Assembly: GCF_025148285.1 (NCBI RefSeq)
Contig: NZ_CP102268.1
Location: 2,273,001 to 2,337,000 of the forward strand
DNA length: 64,000 bases
DNA from: Marvinbryantia formatexigens DSM 14469
GTDB taxonomy: Bacteria; Bacillota; Clostridia; Lachnospirales; Lachnospiraceae
Direction of reading: 5' to 3'
The first letter of the stretch is position 1, and each line of letters opens with the position of its first letter. Below are positions 3,007 through 45,839 of the stretch, in pieces. The notes under the pieces were generated by a model that searched no databases, had not been told where the DNA came from, and was given only the letters and a program-made list of their open reading frames with translations. The translations under genes were made by a program, and so were the position numbers.

Positions 3007-3168
3007 AAAAAGAAACGAGCAGCCCGCCTAAGTAGAAACTGTACGGTGAAAACCCATCTCTTTACTAAGGATTCTACTGGAAACAGAGATTTTTGTCAAT
3101 AGAAAGATGAGAAGAAATTTTGCACCAGGAAGTGTTGTAATAAAAAAGGCAGTTTTTTAAAATAGGTC

Positions 3169-3334: not shown

Positions 3335-3622
3335 ATGAGCGTAGTAATCATTGGCGGAAACGAGAGAATGGAATGTCAGTATTCGGATATTTGTAAGCAT
3401 TATGGCTGCAAAGCAAAGATTTTTACCAAGGAAAACGGCTCAATTAAGAAAAAACTGGGCTGTCCGGATTTATTGATTTTATTCACCAACACAGTTTCTC
3501 ATAAAATGGTAATCAGTGCGTCGCAGGAGGCAAAGCGCAACAATATCCCGATTGCGCGCACGCATACCAGCAGTGCGACAGCGCTGCATGGTATATTGTC
3601 CGAGCACTTCGGAGCAAGATAA
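3335..3622 (+). CDS. DUF2325 domain protein
   Basis: This is a 95-residue protein with an N-terminal VVIIGG strand-loop, a central LLILFTNTVSH strand and NNIPIARTHTSSATALHGIL near the C-terminus, the pattern of DUF2325. Cysteines lie at CQYSDIC, CKAKIF and LGC. The biochemical function is not established. It is the first gene of a three-gene cluster with a DUF3793 protein and a flavodoxin. The palindromic DtxR-like leader suggests expression when iron (or manganese) is scarce. AAAGGAG lies a few bases before the ATG. Confidence 0.75.
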   Translation: MSVVIIGGNERMECQYSDICKHYGCKAKIFTKENGSIKKKLGCPDLLILFTNTVSHKMVISASQEAKRNNIPIARTHTSSATALHGILSEHFGAR

Positions 3623-32858: not shown

Positions 32859-33767
32859 TTACTCCGGCATTGCTGACGGATTTACATGTACCATAATGTG
32901 CTTGATTTTCGGAAAATTCTGTTCGATATCGTCGTGCACCGCCTCGGCTATTTTGTGCGCCTTCCAGAGCGGATAGGAGCCGTCCACGAGAATTTCAATA
33001 TCCACGTATATCTTATTGCCGAAAATACGTGTCTGCAGCAAATCCAGTCCCAGCACATTCGGATTTCTCATTACGCAGTCGTGAATCTGCTTTTCTGTCT
33101 CATCGTCGCAGGAATGGTCGACCATTTTATCAATCGCGTCTTTGAAAATATCGCAGGCGGCTTTGATGATAAATACAAAGATTACAAGACTGGCGACAGG
33201 GTCCATGATGGGGAAGCCAAGTCTTGCCCCGGCGATACCGATGAGCGCTCCGACTGAAGAAAAAGCGTCGGAACGATGATGCCAGGCGTCCGCCATCAGG
33301 GCGCTGGAATCAATTTTTTTTGCGTAAAACCGGGTATACCAGAACATCACTTCTTTTACCGCAATGGAAACAACGGCGGCAATCAGCGCCAGAAGACCGG
33401 GCGCCTCCAGATTGCTGTAATCACCGCGCAGGATGTCCTGCAGCGCGTTGACACCAATGCCAAGTCCGGTAACGAACAGCACCATAGCAAGAATAATGGC
33501 GGCGACGCACTCCATCCGTTCGTGTCCGTAGGGATGCTCCTTGTCGGATTCCTTTGACGCAAGCTTTATGCCGATGATGACAATGACTGTGCTGAATACG
33601 TCGGATGCGGAATGAACGGCGTCGCTTATCATAGCGCTGGAATGCGCAAAAATTCCGGCAAACAGCTTAAAAACCGAAAGCAGCGCATTTCCGGCAATCG
33701 TCACGGCGGACACCTTGTTGGCAGTTCTCTGAAACTCATTTTCCTGTGTTATTTGATTTTTCTCCAT
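32859..33767 (-). CDS. Cation diffusion facilitator (metal exporter)
   Basis: This is a 302-residue CDF transporter with six transmembrane segments and the metal sites ISDAVHSASDVFS (helix 2, D-H-D type) and ADAWHHRSDAFSS (helix 5). HPYGHERME lies after helix 2, and a cytoplasmic C-terminal domain ends in MVHVNPSA. Family members export Zn2+, Co2+, Ni2+, Fe2+ or Mn2+. The NiCo riboswitch in its leader points to Co2+ and Ni2+ export. GGAGGTAAC precedes the ATG. Confidence 0.93.
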   Translation of the reverse strand: MEKNQITQENEFQRTANKVSAVTIAGNALLSVFKLFAGIFAHSSAMISDAVHSASDVFSTVIVIIGIKLASKESDKEHPYGHERMECVAAIILAMVLFVTGLGIGVNALQDILRGDYSNLEAPGLLALIAAVVSIAVKEVMFWYTRFYAKKIDSSALMADAWHHRSDAFSSVGALIGIAGARLGFPIMDPVASLVIFVFIIKAACDIFKDAIDKMVDHSCDDETEKQIHDCVMRNPNVLGLDLLQTRIFGNKIYVDIEILVDGSYPLWKAHKIAEAVHDDIEQNFPKIKHIMVHVNPSAMPE

Positions 33768-33843: not shown

Positions 33844-33889
33844 CAAAAACACCCACGAATCAGTAGTTAGCAACAACTGTCCCGTGGAT
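33844..33889 (-). terminator. Riboswitch-controlled terminator of the CDF leader
   Basis: On the minus strand CCACG pairs with CGTGG and the inner CAGT with ACTG, followed by GTGTTTTTG. The CAGT strand is the 3' half of aptamer helix P1, so aptamer folding and this terminator exclude each other. Confidence 0.7.
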
Positions 33890-33953
33890 GAACATTTCCA
33901 CTGTCACGCATGTGACCCGACTCCATAACGGACTGTTACGGTCTGCTCAGTTT
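33874..33953 (-). ncRNA. NiCo riboswitch (czcD RNA motif)
   Basis: On the minus strand, ACTGAGCAG (33943-33951) opens the aptamer and GGGACAGT (33876-33883) closes it. Between them lie the hairpins CCGTAAC..GTTATGG, GTCAC..GTGAC and GTGGAAATGTTCATCCAC, joined by GAGTCGGG and similar junction bases. This is the conserved layout I know for NiCo riboswitches, which bind Co2+ and Ni2+ cooperatively and turn on metal efflux genes. It precedes a CDF exporter gene. Confidence 0.82.
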
Positions 33954-33990
33954 GTACTGTAGATTTATATGCAGTGCAAAGAGTTATGAT

Positions 33991-34119: not shown

Positions 34120-34148
34120 TTGACATTGACGAAGTAAAATAATATAAT
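34120..34148 (+). promoter_or_regulatory. Consensus promoter of the cobalamin-riboswitch/eut transcript
   Basis: TTGACA (34120-34125) and TATAAT (34143-34148) with an exact 17-base spacer match the sigma-A consensus. The riboswitch starts about 15 bases after the predicted +1. Confidence 0.8.
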
Positions 34149-34167
34149 TGCAGCATAAGTAGATAGT

Positions 34168-34338
34168 TCCAGGTATACAGGTGCCTGCCACAGAAGGCAG
34201 GTGAAAAGGGAAACGGGTGAGAATCCCGTACAAAGCCGTTGCTGTATTGGCGTAGTGACTGCAAAAAATATCATTGAGGCAAAAACTTGAGAAGATAAGC
34301 AGTCATGAGGATGCCTGAGTCAGAAGACCTGCCTGTAT
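34168..34338 (+). ncRNA. Cobalamin riboswitch
   Basis: Conserved elements occur in order: GGTGCCTGCCACAGAAGGCAGGTG, AAAAGGGAAACGGGTGAGAATCCCGTACAAAGCC, CAGTCATGAGGATGCC, and the B12 box GAGTCAGAAGACCTGCCTG. These mark the AdoCbl-type aptamer. It lies upstream of DUF2284 and the ethanolamine operon, whose lyase EutBC needs adenosylcobalamin. No terminator follows immediately. The nearest is at 34628, about 290 bases downstream. Confidence 0.93.
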
Positions 34339-34340
34339 AT

Positions 34341-34627
34341 AACACACGTGACAGCTCCCCGGACCTGGGAGTGTGTATGACCTGTATGCTTCGCAGACAG
34401 CGGAGTGAGCATGCTCTGCGTGCTCAGCTGCTTGCGGCGTATGCATGATTTGTATGCTTCGCAGATTGCGGAGTGTGCTTAATTTGTATGTGTGCTCACG
34501 AGCATGTTTACTTATGCGAGTAATTCATCACCTCTTTCGCACGGTGCGCACATGTCAGAACCTGCCAGTTCTTTATCTGAGAGCGGCCGTGGAGAGAAAT
34601 CTGACATGACGAGTGGATTGCCAGAGG
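34341..34627 (+). ncRNA. Long structured leader RNA between riboswitch and terminator
   Basis: About 290 bases with no convincing gene but many hairpins. ACACAC/GTGTGT encloses CTCCC/GGGAG. Two near-identical hairpins start at 34383 and 34451 (TGTATGCTTCGCAGA..GCGGAGTG, loops AGACA and AGATT). TGAGCA/TGCTCA lies between them, and CATGTCAGA (34551-34559) pairs with TCTGACATG (34600-34608). Together with the riboswitch and the terminator at 34628 it could be released as a B12-controlled small RNA. I found no clear EutV-type hairpin pair. Confidence 0.5.
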
Positions 34628-34662
34628 AAGTACCTGATTGTGACACAGTCGGGTACTTTTTT
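34628..34662 (+). terminator. Intrinsic terminator upstream of the first eut-region gene
   Basis: AAGTACCTGA (34628-34637) pairs with TCGGGTACTT (34649-34658), with TTTT after. It separates the riboswitch leader from the DUF2284 gene at 34761, so downstream genes need read-through, antitermination or another promoter. Confidence 0.8.
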
Positions 34663-34760
34663 GTTTTTATCCGCGGGAACGCGCACGCAGATGCAGAAGA
34701 AATATACCGCTTATGCAGGAAACTCTGCAGAGCGGGGCTCTTTCAGGAAGGAGGATTTTT

Positions 34761-35312
34761 ATGTATCGGACGCAGATTTGCGTAAAGACGCTGAAGGTTA
34801 CGGAATGGATCGCAGAATACTGTCAGCCGGAAACCTTCGTTCCTCTCTGCAGGGAGTGTCCGGAATATCAGAAAAACTGGTCCTGTCCGCCCGGAGTGCC
34901 TCCGGTGAAAGAGATTGCGGGAAAGTACCGGTATGTACAGGCGATAGGCCTGAAGGTGATTTATGAGGAACGGGTCAGAAAAGAGGCGCTGACCGCACCT
35001 GGGCGTGCGGAGGAGCTGCGTGAGCAGAGCTACGGCGCAGCAAAAAAGAAAATGCTGCAGGCGCTTCTGGCGCTGGAGAAGGTGATTACGCCTTCGCAGA
35101 CGATTATGGCGGGCTGCTGCGTACTTTGCGGACGCTGTGCCAGAATCGACGGGAAGCCGTGCAGACATCCGGAGGAGATGCGCTATTCCTTTTCCGGGCT
35201 GGGGTTTGATCTGGGCAGGATTTCCGGAGAGCTTCTGGAGATGCCGCTTCTGTGGCAGAAGGAGGGACTTCCGGAATATAACGTGGCAATAGCCGCCTTC
35301 CTGCATAACTAA
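34761..35312 (+). CDS. DUF2284 predicted metal-binding protein
   Basis: This is a 183-residue soluble protein rich in cysteine, with C..C.........C in RECPEYQKNWSCPPG near the N-terminus. A central motif, GCCVLCGRCARIDGKPCRHP, resembles half of a ferredoxin iron-sulfur site. This is the DUF2284 signature. Members are found near corrinoid and methyltransferase genes, but no reaction is established. It is the first gene after the cobalamin riboswitch and precedes eutG, so a link to B12 handling is likely but inferred. GGAAGGAGG precedes the ATG at 34761. Confidence 0.8.
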   Translation: MYRTQICVKTLKVTEWIAEYCQPETFVPLCRECPEYQKNWSCPPGVPPVKEIAGKYRYVQAIGLKVIYEERVRKEALTAPGRAEELREQSYGAAKKKMLQALLALEKVITPSQTIMAGCCVLCGRCARIDGKPCRHPEEMRYSFSGLGFDLGRISGELLEMPLLWQKEGLPEYNVAIAAFLHN

Positions 35313-35378: not shown

Positions 35379-36515
35379 ATGGAACAATTTGGAGTCAGAA
35401 CCAGGATTGTTATGGGCGACGGTCTGGACGCCATGATTGGCAGAATGAAGCGCGTATTCGTCGTAACGGACAGCTTTATGGCAAGCAGCGGCAAGGCGGA
35501 TTATGTGACAGCCAGACTGGACAAAGCCAGGGTGGAGTACACCGTTTTTTCTGATATTTCCGGAGAACCGGATATCGGGATGGTGACGGCGGGTACCAGC
35601 CGGATGCTGGAGTTTGAACCGGATACCGTAATCTGCATGGGCGGAGGCGCAGCCATCGATGCCGCAAAGGCAATCGTATTTGTGGCGCGCAAGGCCGGGG
35701 ACAGCAAGGCTGTGGAATTTATCGCGATTCCCACGACCAGCGGCACCGGCTCCGAGGTAAGCCGTTTTGCGGTGATTACGGATAAAGACAAGGGCGTCAA
35801 GTATCCGCTGGTGGATGACAGTCTTCTTCCCGATGTGGCGCTGCTGGATGCCCGGCTGGTGGAGAGTGCGCCGCCCTCTGTGACGGCGGATACCGGAATC
35901 GATGTGTTTACACACGCTGTGGAGGCTTTCGTATCCACAGGAAGAAATGATTTCACGGACGCCTGCGCGGAGAAAGCAATCAAGCTGGTAAACCACTATC
36001 TGATGACCGCCTATAAGAATCCGGGAGATTTAAAGGCGCGCCAGGGAATGCACAATGCGTCCTGTCTGGCGGGCATTGCGTTTTCCAACGCAGGACTGGG
36101 ACTGAATCACGGCATGGCTCACGCGATGGGGGCGCGTTTTCATATTCCCCACGGCAGAGCCAACGGTATTCTGCTTCCCTACGTTATGAGCTTCAATGCG
36201 GGCTGCGCCGCGGAAAAGCTGACGCCGACGGCGAAACGGTACGCGCAGATTTCGCGGCTGCTTCGTCTTGATACAAGCAATGTGCGCCAGAGCGCGCTGA
36301 ATATGATACGCACCGCGCGCAGCTTCATTAAACGGATGAACATGCCGTCTACCATTGAAGCGGCGGGCGTGACAAAGGAGCAGTTTGAGGCCGAGCTGGA
36401 CGCTATGGCGGCGGCAGCCCTGGCAGACAGCTGTACGGCGTCAAATCCGCAGCCGGTGACGCTGGAGGATATCAAAGCAGTTTACCGGAAAGCCTTTACC
36501 GGAAAGCTCCCTTAA
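35379..36515 (+). CDS. eutG: Iron-containing alcohol dehydrogenase (EutG/PduQ-like)
   Basis: This is a 378-residue group III alcohol dehydrogenase. It has the nucleotide motif [12 protein letters not shown] and [12 protein letters not shown]. The iron-binding region contains [16 protein letters not shown] and [21 protein letters not shown] with the conserved His residues. It reduces acetaldehyde to ethanol with NADH, recycling NAD+ inside the microcompartment for EutE. The ATG at 35379 follows AAAGGAGC. The upstream in-frame start lacks a ribosome site. Confidence 0.9.
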
Positions 36516-36531: not shown

Positions 36532-36882
36532 ATGTCAGAACTACAGGGTAAAGAGCGTATTATACAGGAATTTGTGCCTGGCAAGCAGGTGACGCTGGCG
36601 CATGTGATCGCCAATCCGGATAAGGGACTGTATGCAAAGCTTGGACTGATAGACGCGGAGGGAGCCATCGGCATTATGACGATTACACCCAGCGAGGCAG
36701 CCATGATTGCGGCGGATGTGGCGACAAAGTCCGCCGATGTAAAAATCGGTTTTGTGGACCGTTTTAACGGCTCTCTGGTGATAACCGGGGATGTGGCGGC
36801 GGTGGAGGTGGCGCTGCGGGACGTGATGGATGTCCTCTGCGGCATGATGGGCTTTGCACAGACTACCGTTACCAAGACCTGA
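36532..36882 (+). CDS. eutS: Microcompartment shell protein EutS
   Basis: This 116-residue BMC-H shell protein has the circularly permuted fold of EutS/PduU. It opens [21 protein letters not shown], which forms the small beta-barrel cap over the hexamer pore, followed by [35 protein letters not shown]. Length and motif order fit the family exactly. It forms part of the flat facets of the ethanolamine compartment. It follows eutG by 16 bases. Confidence 0.95.
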
Positions 36883-36960: not shown

Positions 36961-37434
36961 ATGACAGAAGAAATGAAGAAAACAGAGGAGCTGGACCGGA
37001 AAAAAAGGGTCATCCTGATTGGACGGTCGACCGCAGGAAAAACAACGCTCTGCCAGAAAATCAATAACGAGGAGCTGAGGTATCACAAAACCCAGACGGT
37101 GCAGATTATCAATAAAAATATGATTGATACGCCGGGAGAGTACCTGGAGCGGACCAGCTACCGGGGCGCCCTGGTGGTGACCTCCACGGAAGCGGATGTG
37201 ATTCTTCTGGTGCAGGACGCCACAGAGGAAGGAACCATGTTCCCTCCCATGTTTAACAGTATGTTTGCCAAACCCTGCGTGGGTGTGGTGACAAAGGCGG
37301 ACCTGGCGGATGAGGCACAGGTGGAGCGGGCAAAAAAATATTTGAAAAATGCGGGAGCCGGGGAGCTCTATGTCACCAGCGCCGTCACAGGCGAGGGTGT
37401 GAAGGAGCTGGTGGATACGCTGCATCTTCTGTAG
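36961..37434 (+). CDS. eutP: EutP/PduV-type small GTPase-like protein
   Basis: This is a 157-residue P-loop protein with Walker [21 protein letters not shown] (switch II/DxxG equivalent), a VVTKADLAD nucleotide-specificity loop and [12 protein letters not shown]. It belongs to the EutP/PduV family, for which acetate-kinase-like activity or compartment positioning has been proposed. It lies between eutS and eutA, as in other clostridial eut operons. The first ATG is used. An internal ATG at residue 5 is possible. Confidence 0.92.
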
Positions 37435-37504
37435 CTTATGGCAGCAGATAATCATAAGTTTCGTCCGGACATACCGGACGGCACCCGGTATCAGGAGGCT
37501 TGGT

Positions 37505-38935
37505 ATGCAGGAAACAATTAAAAGTATAGGCATTGATATCGGTACATCTACCACACAGCTTGTATTCAGCCGGCTGGTGGTGGAAAACGTGGCGGGAAGC
37601 TATACGGTGCCCAGGGTGAGCATCGTGGAAAAGGAAGTGTTCTACCGCAGCAGGATTTATTTTACGCCCCTGTGCTCCGCGACGGAAATCGATGCGGAGG
37701 CGGTAAAAAAGATTGTCAGCCAGGAATATGAAGCGGCTGGTATGAAGCCGGAGGACCTCTCCACGGGCGCGGTGATTATCACCGGCGAGACGGCAAGAAA
37801 AAAGAATGCCAACGAGGTGCTGGCGGCGCTCTCTGATTTTGCGGGAGATTTTGTGGTGGCTACGGCGGGACCGGACCTGGAATCCGTGCTGGCTGCCAGA
37901 GGAGCCGGAGCGGATGTGCTCTCGGAGGAGCACCGCACGGTAGTGGCGAACCTGGATATCGGAGGCGGAACCACAAACATTGCGCTTTATGAAAAGGGCG
38001 TTCTGCGGGGCACCTGCTGTCTGGATATCGGAGGACGTCTGATAAAGCTCCAGGAGGGGAAAATTTCCTACATTTTTCCCAAAATCGCGGAGCTGGCGAA
38101 GCTTCACGGAATCTCCATTGCGGTGGGGGAGCGGGCGGATGAGGAAAAGCTGTACCGGATATGCCGCCTGATGGCGGACGAGCTGGCGAAATCCCTCTAT
38201 CTGCTTCCGGCGGACGGAGCGCATAAGGGAATGTACACGAACGACGGCTCCATGCTCCCGGAAAAGCCGCGGGCAGCGGCACTGACGTATTCCGGCGGTG
38301 TGGCGGACTGTATTTATCACACAGATGATACAGACCCCTTCCGGTACGGCGATATCGGCGTACTTCTGGGAAGGGCGGTGCGGGAAAATGAAAAGCTCTC
38401 CGCGCTGGTCCGTTACCAGGCAAAGGAAACCATCCGGGCAACGGTGGTCGGGGCCGGTACCCATGCGACGGACGTCAGCGGCAGCACGATCCGCTACGAT
38501 AAAAAATATTTACCGATTAAGAATATTCCGGTTCTCAAGGTTTCTGCTGAGGATGAGGAAAATCTTGATACATTTGCAGAGACGATAAGAACGCAGCTTC
38601 CCATGTTCCGCAGCGAAGGCGTGCTGGAGTATGTGGCGATTGCGTTTCTGGGTAAGAAGCGTACCGGCTTCCGGGAAATCCAGGAGCTGGCAGACGCGCT
38701 GATCAAAGGAGCACAGGAGGTGATAAAGAGCGAATACCCGCTGATCGTGGTGGTGGAAAACGATATCGGCAAGGTTCTTGGAAATGCGCTGGACGTAAAA
38801 CTCAGGCATGAAAAGCCGGTCATCTGCATCGACCGCATCCACACATCCGGCGGAGATTATATTGACATCGGAGAACCCCTTGTCGGGGGACAGGTACTTC
38901 CGGTAGTCAACAAGACACTGGTGTTTAATACTTAG
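37505..38935 (+). CDS. eutA: Ethanolamine ammonia-lyase reactivating factor EutA
   Basis: This 476-residue ASKHA-fold ATPase exchanges damaged cobalamin on EutBC for fresh adenosylcobalamin. The N-terminal phosphate loop is [16 protein letters not shown], and the second phosphate motif is [28 protein letters not shown]-like residues follow ([13 protein letters not shown]). Length is that of the family. It lies directly upstream of eutB with 16 bases between, the classical order. Confidence 0.95.
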
Positions 38936-38951: not shown

Positions 38952-40319
38952 GTGATTTTAAAGACAAAGCTGTTTGGTCATGTCTACGAGTTTAAATCTG
39001 TAAGAGAAGTCATGGCAAAGGCAAACGAAGAAAAATCCGGCGATAAACTGGCAGGTATCGCTGCAGAGACCGCAGAGGAGAGAGTTGCGGCAAAATTCGT
39101 TCTTTCAAATCTGACGCTGAATGATTTAAGAAACAATCCGGCGGTTCCCTACGAGGAGGACGAGGTTACAAGAATCATCCAGGACGATGTGAACGAGCAG
39201 ATTTTCAATACCATGAAGAACTGGACCATAGCGGAATTCCGTGAGTGGCTGCTGGATGTAAACACCACGCCGGAAATGATACGCAGAGCGTCCAGAGGAC
39301 TGACCTCCGAAATCGTGGCGGGCGTTTGCAAGCTGATGAGCAATCTGGACCTGATTTACGCGGCAAAGAAGATGCGCGTATCCGCTCACTGCAATACGAC
39401 CATCGGTCTGCCGGGAACCTTTTCTTCCCGTCTGCAGCCAAACCACACGACCGACGACCCGAAGGGCATCATTGCTTCCGTTATGGAAGGACTTTCCCTC
39501 GGCTGCGGCGATGCGGTTATCGGACTGAATCCGGTGGACGATTCCGTGGAGAGCGTTGCCCGTATTCTGAAGATGTTTGACGAGTTTAAAAATAAATGGG
39601 AAGTGCCCACCCAGATCTGTGTACTGGCGCACGTTACCACACAGACAGAAGCGGCACAGCGTTTCGGCGCTCCGCTGGATCTGATGTTCCAGTCAATCGC
39701 CGGTTCCCAGAAGGGAAATGAAGCCTTCGGTCTGACAGCGGCAATGCTGGAGGAAGGACGCCAGACGATGCTGACGAATTCCACCGCGACCGGTCCGAAC
39801 GTTATGTATTTCGAGACAGGACAGGGCTCCGAGCTTTCTTCTGAAGCGCACAACGGATGGGACCAGGTGACGATGGAGGCGCGCTGCTACGGCTTTGCGA
39901 AGCGGTTCCAGCCGTTCCTGGTAAATACGGTAGTAGGATTTATCGGACCGGAGTATCTGTATGATTCCAAGCAGGTAACCCGTGCCGGTCTGGAGGACCA
40001 CTTTATGGGCAAGCTCACCGGTATTCCTATGGGCTGCGACGCCTGCTACACGAACCACATGAAGGCAGACCAGAATGATATCGAAAATCTTGCCACGCTT
40101 CTGGTTGCGGCGGGCTGCAACTATATCATGGGCGTGCCGCAGGGCGACGACTGTATGCTGATGTATCAGTGCACCGGTTATCATGAGGCGGCGGCTCTGC
40201 GTGAGGTATTCGGTCTTCGTCCGATTAAGGAATTTGACCAGTGGCTGGAGAAGATGGGCTTCTCGGAGAACGGTAAACTGACAAAACTGGCAGGCGACGC
40301 GTCTGTATTCATGAAATAA
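38952..40319 (+). CDS. eutB: Ethanolamine ammonia-lyase large subunit
   Basis: This 455-residue TIM-barrel catalytic subunit of the AdoCbl-dependent lyase (EC 4.3.1.7) converts ethanolamine to acetaldehyde and ammonia. Typical stretches are SANTTIGLPGTFSSRLQPN-like (CNTTIGLPGTFSSRLQPNH), NPVDDSVESV, QSIAGSQKGNEAFG, YFETGQGSELSSEAH and the substrate-side GIPMGCDACYTNHMKAD. It starts at a GTG preceded by GAGGTGATGG. The E. coli protein is nearly the same length. It pairs with EutC encoded 19 bases downstream. Confidence 0.97.
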   Translation: MILKTKLFGHVYEFKSVREVMAKANEEKSGDKLAGIAAETAEERVAAKFVLSNLTLNDLRNNPAVPYEEDEVTRIIQDDVNEQIFNTMKNWTIAEFREWLLDVNTTPEMIRRASRGLTSEIVAGVCKLMSNLDLIYAAKKMRVSAHCNTTIGLPGTFSSRLQPNHTTDDPKGIIASVMEGLSLGCGDAVIGLNPVDDSVESVARILKMFDEFKNKWEVPTQICVLAHVTTQTEAAQRFGAPLDLMFQSIAGSQKGNEAFGLTAAMLEEGRQTMLTNSTATGPNVMYFETGQGSELSSEAHNGWDQVTMEARCYGFAKRFQPFLVNTVVGFIGPEYLYDSKQVTRAGLEDHFMGKLTGIPMGCDACYTNHMKADQNDIENLATLLVAAGCNYIMGVPQGDDCMLMYQCTGYHEAAALREVFGLRPIKEFDQWLEKMGFSENGKLTKLAGDASVFMK

Positions 40320-44877: not shown

Positions 44878-44996
44878 GGCTGCCGTGGCCGCAGAGCCAT
44901 GCGGTCTGAGACAGGCAAAGAAAAAGGCGCAGCCTCCGCGCATTGCGGATAAGATGGCGGAGAGCGGCGCCGGAAACCAGGGAAGGGGGATACAGC

Positions 44997-45839
44997 GTGA
45001 AAGCAATCACGGAAGAAATCCTTCGCTATGAACTTCGAAACAGCCAGCCGGAAGTATATATTATTCCCAAGGGAAAGATACTGACACCGGCGGCGAGAGA
45101 ATATCTTCAGCAGCGCAAAATCCGCTTTGAAAAAGAAGGCGGAGATACCGGCAGATACCAGATGAAGACTCCGGTGAAGAAGGAAGAGGCGCCGTCCGCG
45201 GATAAGCCGAGGGTGGTGGCGACAGAGGTGCCGCCGCCTAAAAAGGTGGAGGTCCCCGGACAGGAGAACGGGCAGCCCAGACCGAAATATGTGGATTATG
45301 AGACGGGAGCATTTTATTATGACAAGCCGGAGCATATGACGCAGCTTTCCGGAAATATGCTGGTCTGCAAGGACCATCCGCGGATTCTGTTCCGCGGAAA
45401 GCTGGATTCCCTGCAGGCGTCGGTGGTGCTGGCGCAGGCGATGATAAAGGCGGGCGGCGGCAGCCAGGCGCTGCTTGAGGATCTGGGAGATATACTGAAG
45501 GACCTCAGGGAAATGATGCGGTGCGATGTACTGGATGAAAAGATGAGGACAGAAACCATCATCGGACTCACCCATAAGGAGCTTCGCGAGCATTCACACA
45601 ATCCCATGAAATATTACAGTATTAAACAGATGATTCTTCCGGACTACACAATGGGCACAGAGTACGCCATACTGAATAAGCTGCGCACGGCGGTCCGTGA
45701 GACGGAAGTGGCGGCGTGCACCGCTTTTCATGTGGACAAGAAATATATCAGAAACGACATCATAGAGGAGCTGAACCGCCTGTCGAGCGCGCTGCATATC
45801 ATGATGTGCAAATATCTGGCAGGACAGTACGGCGCATAG
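44997..45839 (+). CDS. eutT: Corrinoid adenosyltransferase EutT
   Basis: This 280-residue enzyme should make adenosylcobalamin from ATP and reduced cobalamin for EutBC. The N-terminus has the small module ITEEILRYELRN..VYIIPKGKILTPAAREYLQQRKIRF. It is followed after a charged linker by the EutT core, YVDYETGAFYYDKPEHMTQLSGNMLVCKDHPRILFRGKLDSLQASVVLAQ. The GTG at 44997 is preferred: AAGGGGG precedes it, and the upstream frame has no ribosome site and an atypical sequence. The motif HMTQLSGNMLVC has one cysteine instead of the Cys-Cys pair of enteric EutT. Confidence 0.9.
   Translation: MKAITEEILRYELRNSQPEVYIIPKGKILTPAAREYLQQRKIRFEKEGGDTGRYQMKTPVKKEEAPSADKPRVVATEVPPPKKVEVPGQENGQPRPKYVDYETGAFYYDKPEHMTQLSGNMLVCKDHPRILFRGKLDSLQASVVLAQAMIKAGGGSQALLEDLGDILKDLREMMRCDVLDEKMRTETIIGLTHKELREHSHNPMKYYSIKQMILPDYTMGTEYAILNKLRTAVRETEVAACTAFHVDKKYIRNDIIEELNRLSSALHIMMCKYLAGQYGA

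Follow-up and report, generated by a model that had tools for sequence, protein, structure and literature searches.

A putative orphaned EutX-type leader with a cobalamin riboswitch upstream of the eut operon of Marvinbryantia formatexigens

EutX and Rli55 are the textbook case of a riboswitch that governs a protein-capturing RNA. A leader of similar layout stands ahead of the eut operon of Marvinbryantia formatexigens DSM 14469, where the captured protein has been lost and the sensor is apparently intact. The locus is in effect a natural experiment, and it raises the question of whether such a riboswitch has been rewired or is decaying. We address this question with 64,000 nt of the chromosome (the window; GCF_025148285.1, NZ_CP102268.1, positions 2,273,001–2,337,000 of the forward strand), in whose coordinates features are given unless stated otherwise, and with the genome as a whole (4.58 Mb in one contig, 99.6% complete).

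The leader and the operon behind it

The ORF listing of the window contains a eut microcompartment operon that encodes a DUF2284 protein, an alcohol dehydrogenase, EutS, EutP, EutA, EutB, EutC, EutL and shell proteins, and further EutE, EutT, PduL-like, RnfC-like, EutH and EutQ proteins; a subset of the genes was named by family profile tests and the remainder by sequence resemblance. On the + strand, the first gene (34761–35312; PF10050, 79.6 bits) encodes the DUF2284 predicted metal-binding protein, and is followed by genes for an iron-containing, EutG/PduQ-like alcohol dehydrogenase (35379–36515; matched at the family level, with no equivalog cut-off exceeded), EutS (36532–36882; NCBIfam, above cut-off), EutP/PduV (36961–37434; TIGR02528, above cut-off), the reactivating factor EutA (37505–38935; NF007992, above cut-off) and EutB, the large subunit of AdoCbl-dependent ethanolamine ammonia-lyase (38952–40319; NF011649, above cut-off). 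An EutT-type cobalamin adenosyltransferase is encoded at 44943–45839 (+ strand; PF01923).

The leader is preceded by a sigma-70 promoter that matches the consensus at 12 of 12 positions (TTGACA-17-TATAAT, 34120–34148, + strand), and transcription presumably starts near 34155. The aptamer (34162–34350, + strand), of the AdoCbl class, matches the full cobalamin riboswitch model RF00174 (positions 1–189 of 189) with 104 bits (E 5.7e-25), compared with a gathering score of 31.5 bits; the leader matched no other known RNA family. Eight cobalamin riboswitches are present in the genome, this one included. Promoter and aptamer had both been proposed in an initial annotation of this DNA and are confirmed here, as is the strong intrinsic terminator that it placed before the first gene, which has a stem of 18 bp followed by a T-run (34624–34662, + strand; folding z −5.45 relative to shuffles). 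The window shares with EutX and Rli55 an AdoCbl riboswitch within a eut locus under a promoter that, judged by sequence alone, is of the constitutive type.

P13 is the hairpin CUCCC-CGGACCU-GGGAG (34355–34371, + strand), whose alignment with those of two relatives, L027 and L031, exceeded all 300 shuffles. The CGG of its loop, L13, is complementary to UCCCG in L5, so that a kissing loop is possible and the leader has, as far as its letters can tell, both the kissing loop and the P13 that characterize RF00174. A CCG/CGG kissing loop matching the window L5/L13 has been mapped in P. megaterium metE (PMC10653944), and because this complementarity is kept, AdoCbl sensing by the window aptamer is plausible. 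P13 is followed by UGUGUAUGAC, with no U-run, and so would not be an intrinsic terminator by itself.

Two further elements share the intergenic region. On the minus strand, a NiCo riboswitch (RF02683, 70.4 bits, 33875–33960) lies upstream of a cation-efflux gene (32859–33767, PF01545), back-to-back with the cobalamin riboswitch, so that a cobalt and a cobalamin sensor diverge from one region. Between the terminator and the first operon gene, an element of the form GCACGCARATGCAGAAGAAA...CTTATGC (34681–34717) is part of a hairpin-forming intergenic sequence; it has one other copy in the genome (L023, G000:C1:2516051) and also occurs in a genome of the same genus (L011, G002).

EutV, its target hairpins and the relatives

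By analogy with EutX and Rli55, the window RNA had been proposed to act through EutV. The layout on which the analogy was built stands, and is found also in L027 and L031, whereas EutV, EutW and the target hairpins are missing. The complete genome encodes a single ANTAR-domain protein, directly after the glutamine synthetase gene (glnA), and because of this neighbour it is more likely to be a nitrogen-type ANTAR regulator than EutV. Against NCBIfam models the protein gave no receiver match. When the genome was queried with the EutW of L031, only a weak kinase-domain match was returned.

In known EutV targets the first loop position is A and the fourth is G (PMC3369931), and this canonical A1/G4 form is seen in L029. 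The loops of other EutV-type hairpins in Lachnospiraceae (L027, L031, L044, L046–L049) begin with G, not the published A. Upstream of the first eut gene in L044 and L046–L049 are paired hairpins with G..G.A hexaloops, followed by a terminator; their place and form suggest that such pairs are EutV targets. A covariance model built from seven hairpin pairs of this type, R1, matched the sites that precede the alcohol dehydrogenase gene in L027 (22.3 bits) and L031 (20.5 bits); the hairpin after P13 in L027 was a weak match (16.3 bits). The reach of the model is limited: of the loci with eutVW that had not been used for training, it was convincing in L027 and L031 only, and missed L028, L029, L030 and L058. 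The loci lacking eutVW gave no convincing R1 site, the best scoring 14.1 bits (L050).

Downstream of the window aptamer there is no hairpin with an A1/G4 or a G1/G4/A6 hexaloop. With filters off, the best R1 match in the window operon (9.2 bits) is at chance level and lies inside a gene, and R1 found no site above chance across the whole genome, in a search that had no positive control. These hexaloop and covariance-model scans of leader and operon bear out the earlier remark that a clear EutV hairpin pair is missing. Because EutV, EutW and the RNA hairpins that are bound have been lost, the window RNA cannot work by sequestering EutV.

L027 and L031 have a promoter (TTGACA-17-TAAACT) in the same place as that of the window, aptamers of 102–103 bits and the same P13 (CTCCTCGGATCTGGGAG). 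Twelve nucleotides after P13 comes a hexaloop hairpin (GCAGC-GACGCA-GCTGC or GCAGC-GGTGCA-GCTGC), and then a terminator-like hairpin, a second EutV-type hairpin, a terminator and the alcohol dehydrogenase gene; in their own coordinates, the EutV-type hairpins are at 3486–3501 and 3789–3806 in L027 and at 3043–3058 and 3343–3360 in L031. With the EutX/Rli55 order and eutVW both present, these loci look like candidate EutX-type systems in Lachnospiraceae. We found no description of such leaders in the literature consulted, and a 2018 review reports no obvious riboswitch in the Clostridium eut loci that have EutV (PMC5821096). The aptamer and P13 of the window align with those of L027 and L031 far above shuffles; downstream of P13, the alignment is at shuffle level. 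An octamer common to the three leaders, TCACCTCT, was considered as a conserved anti-P13 or anti-Shine-Dalgarno loop and rejected: leaders of this length would be expected to share about one octamer, the surrounding alignment is that of shuffles, and the octamer is predicted to pair with P13 weakly or not at all.

In L026, L027, L028 and L031, the four loci closest to the window in EutA, eutV and eutW (∼2 kb) lie between EutP and EutA, or directly before EutA; the corresponding junction in the window is 70 nt long in the ORF table (37435–37504, + strand). A tree of the first 160–185 residues of EutA places the window within the clade of these four loci, all of them eutVW-bearing (support 99/97). 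Given this nesting, loss of eutVW in the window lineage, from an EutX-like ancestor, appears the simplest reading, and an EutX-like origin of the window leader is likely, the ancestral state being drawn from few sequences (only two relatives with the riboswitch were identified). Other Lachnospiraceae eut loci (L045, L050–L057) also lack eutVW in the stretch fetched, the EutP–EutA junction included.

Spacer, terminator and rival readings

The initial annotation described some 290 bases of hairpin-rich RNA after the aptamer, with two near-identical hairpins. Segments 34384–34410 and 34452–34478 are truly near-identical, with no such match expected by chance. They belong, however, as its first and third copies, to a 34-nt tandem repeat that has diverged (34368–34490, + strand; 3.6 copies, 69% matches), and a simple 12-bp hairpin is predicted only at the second, the first being contained in a larger predicted hairpin (34383–34445). 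The richness in hairpins was overstated: the leader overall is more stable than its shuffles (z −4.8), and the excess after the aptamer is restricted to the repeat block (34377–34500, z −2.8) and the terminator, the spacer at 34495–34618 (+ strand) folding at shuffle level (z −0.8). The duplicated hairpins carry no ANTAR-like hexaloop, and they are absent from L027 and L031, a loss that the annotation itself had named as evidence against its proposal. A dispersed genomic element was ruled out, the repeat being unique to the eut leader in the 4.58-Mb genome. It matched no phage or plasmid, and two exact matches to its pattern in viral contigs were isolated, in unrelated GC-rich sequence, and were judged to be chance. 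At 34431, CTTGCGGCGTA has 11 nt identical to an EutV-type hairpin of L046, and might be a decayed EutV hairpin with a 7-nt loop and a 3-bp stem, although this post hoc observation is suggestive only.

The gap between P13 and the terminator is 252 nt, whereas a study of 38 corrinoid riboswitches gives a range of 0–82 nt (PMC10653944). The P13 3′ strand pairs with the terminator 5′ arm at −7.0 kcal/mol, no better than shuffles (mean −7.5), and pairing of leader segments with either arm of the terminator did not exceed chance, so that antitermination by P13 or the aptamer was rejected. A pairing of the leader 5′ end with 34499–34516 was likewise rejected, being equalled in 18 of 500 shuffles and absent in L027 and L031. 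With such a gap, and with antiterminator pairing at chance, the leader departs from the conventional platform in which the terminator is coupled to P13, an arrangement that is usual but not obligatory for RF00174 membership.

In the three other riboswitches of this genome for which the scan placed a terminator (L071, L072 and L074), 48, 49 and 178 nt separate the aptamer from the start of the terminator; the distance in the eut leader is the longest of the four. The cobalamin riboswitch L074 (G000:C1:4142508-4142702), whose terminator is likewise distant (178–202 nt), precedes a NuoE/HndA-like ORF by ∼400 nt. Another cobalamin riboswitch, L076 (G000:C1:4108198-4108393), has an unusual target, a lactate/malate-dehydrogenase-like ORF that begins ∼90 nt downstream.

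Because of the 252-nt gap, the lack of an antiterminator beyond shuffles and the lack of a U-run after P13, we favour, with moderate confidence, the reading of the window leader as an orphaned EutX-type leader. Its constitutive promoter would give an RNA of ∼505 nt with an AdoCbl riboswitch, a kissing-loop-competent P13 and a strong terminator. The ancestral transcript, comparable to those of L027 and L031, presumably bore EutV-type hairpins and acted with EutV and EutW; eutVW and all recognisable EutV hairpins would then have been lost in the window lineage, in an order that we infer, and the tandem repeat would now fill the position downstream of P13. Most transcripts of this terminator-guarded leader would end near 34660, and the operon would presumably be supplied by readthrough, which may keep eut expression, in cis, at a basal level or at one tuned weakly by B12. 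Either AdoCbl may adjust, in cis, how much is read through, or the switch may now be a relic; the high-scoring, seemingly intact aptamer and the conserved kissing loop speak for ongoing selection rather than a relic.

Retention of the high-scoring aptamer also keeps alive the possibility, which we consider doubtful, of a rewired B12-gated eut RNA, either a protein-free long-range cis switch through which AdoCbl would turn eut on, or a trans RNA with a new partner. In the cis form, itself a tentative proposal, ligand-stabilised P13 would refold the long leader and alter termination at 34624–34662, giving a B12 response without EutV. The promoter scan found no promoter-like site between the terminator and the DUF2284 gene, and the sole convincing promoter lies upstream of the aptamer, so that readthrough must feed the operon, barring an undetected promoter. 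The L5/L13 complementarity is intact and an activating corrinoid riboswitch exists, that of A. halodurans cobT (PMC10653944), but neither the P13 3′ strand nor the leader segments pair with the terminator better than chance, and the gap is well beyond the studied range.

We consider it improbable that the leader is a B12-gated small RNA that acts in trans on a target other than EutV, whether another RNA-binding protein or a base-paired mRNA. It has a strong promoter and a strong terminator of its own and, as noted, an overall fold more stable than shuffles, and CCUCUUUC, near 34531–34538, could form an 8-bp pairing with the first gene's ribosome-binding site. However, 13 of 200 shuffles paired as well, and chance alone often yields octamers that resemble an anti-Shine-Dalgarno sequence; moreover, none of the sequence after P13 is conserved in relatives, and Cobalamin is the only RNA family that the leader matches.

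Translational control of a leader peptide is still less probable. Here P13 would hide a GGGAG Shine-Dalgarno sequence 5 nt upstream of an ATG at 34377 (∼23 codons, ending at 34448), a spacing and sequestration that match the classic translational corrinoid platform; but L027 and L031 have no equivalent start codon at such a spacing, the frame crosses 34-nt repeats that do not preserve it, and coupling to a terminator ∼176 nt downstream is not evident. A canonical EutX/Rli55 decoy for EutV with divergent hairpins shares the order of promoter, riboswitch, noncoding region and terminator, but is already contradicted, and can be practically dismissed, in a complete genome without EutV or EutW and a leader without a hexaloop pair of either type.

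Comparison with known systems

The window leader, read as an orphaned EutX-type RNA, has in common with EutX of Enterococcus faecalis and Rli55 of Listeria monocytogenes a constitutive promoter, an AdoCbl riboswitch, a terminated noncoding RNA and a eut locus; it differs in that its genome lacks EutV and EutW and the leader lacks the EutV-binding dual hairpin. A B12-induced short form of EutX, with its end at the last, terminator-like hairpin of the aptamer, has been described (PMC5821096), and the window P13, having no U-run to produce it, argues against an equivalent form here. EutV/ANTAR dual-hairpin attenuators, which also place a terminator ahead of eut genes, are carried by L027, L031, L044 and L046–L049, in contrast to the window, where none is found in leader or operon. 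The transcriptional corrinoid riboswitches of P. megaterium metE and A. halodurans cobT share with the window leader the aptamer, P13, L5–L13 complementarity and a downstream intrinsic terminator. They differ from it in the distance from P13 to the terminator, 252 nt in the window as against 0–82 nt, in the antiterminator pairing, which was undetected in the window, and in the genes that follow: the window operon uses AdoCbl, and does not make or import it.
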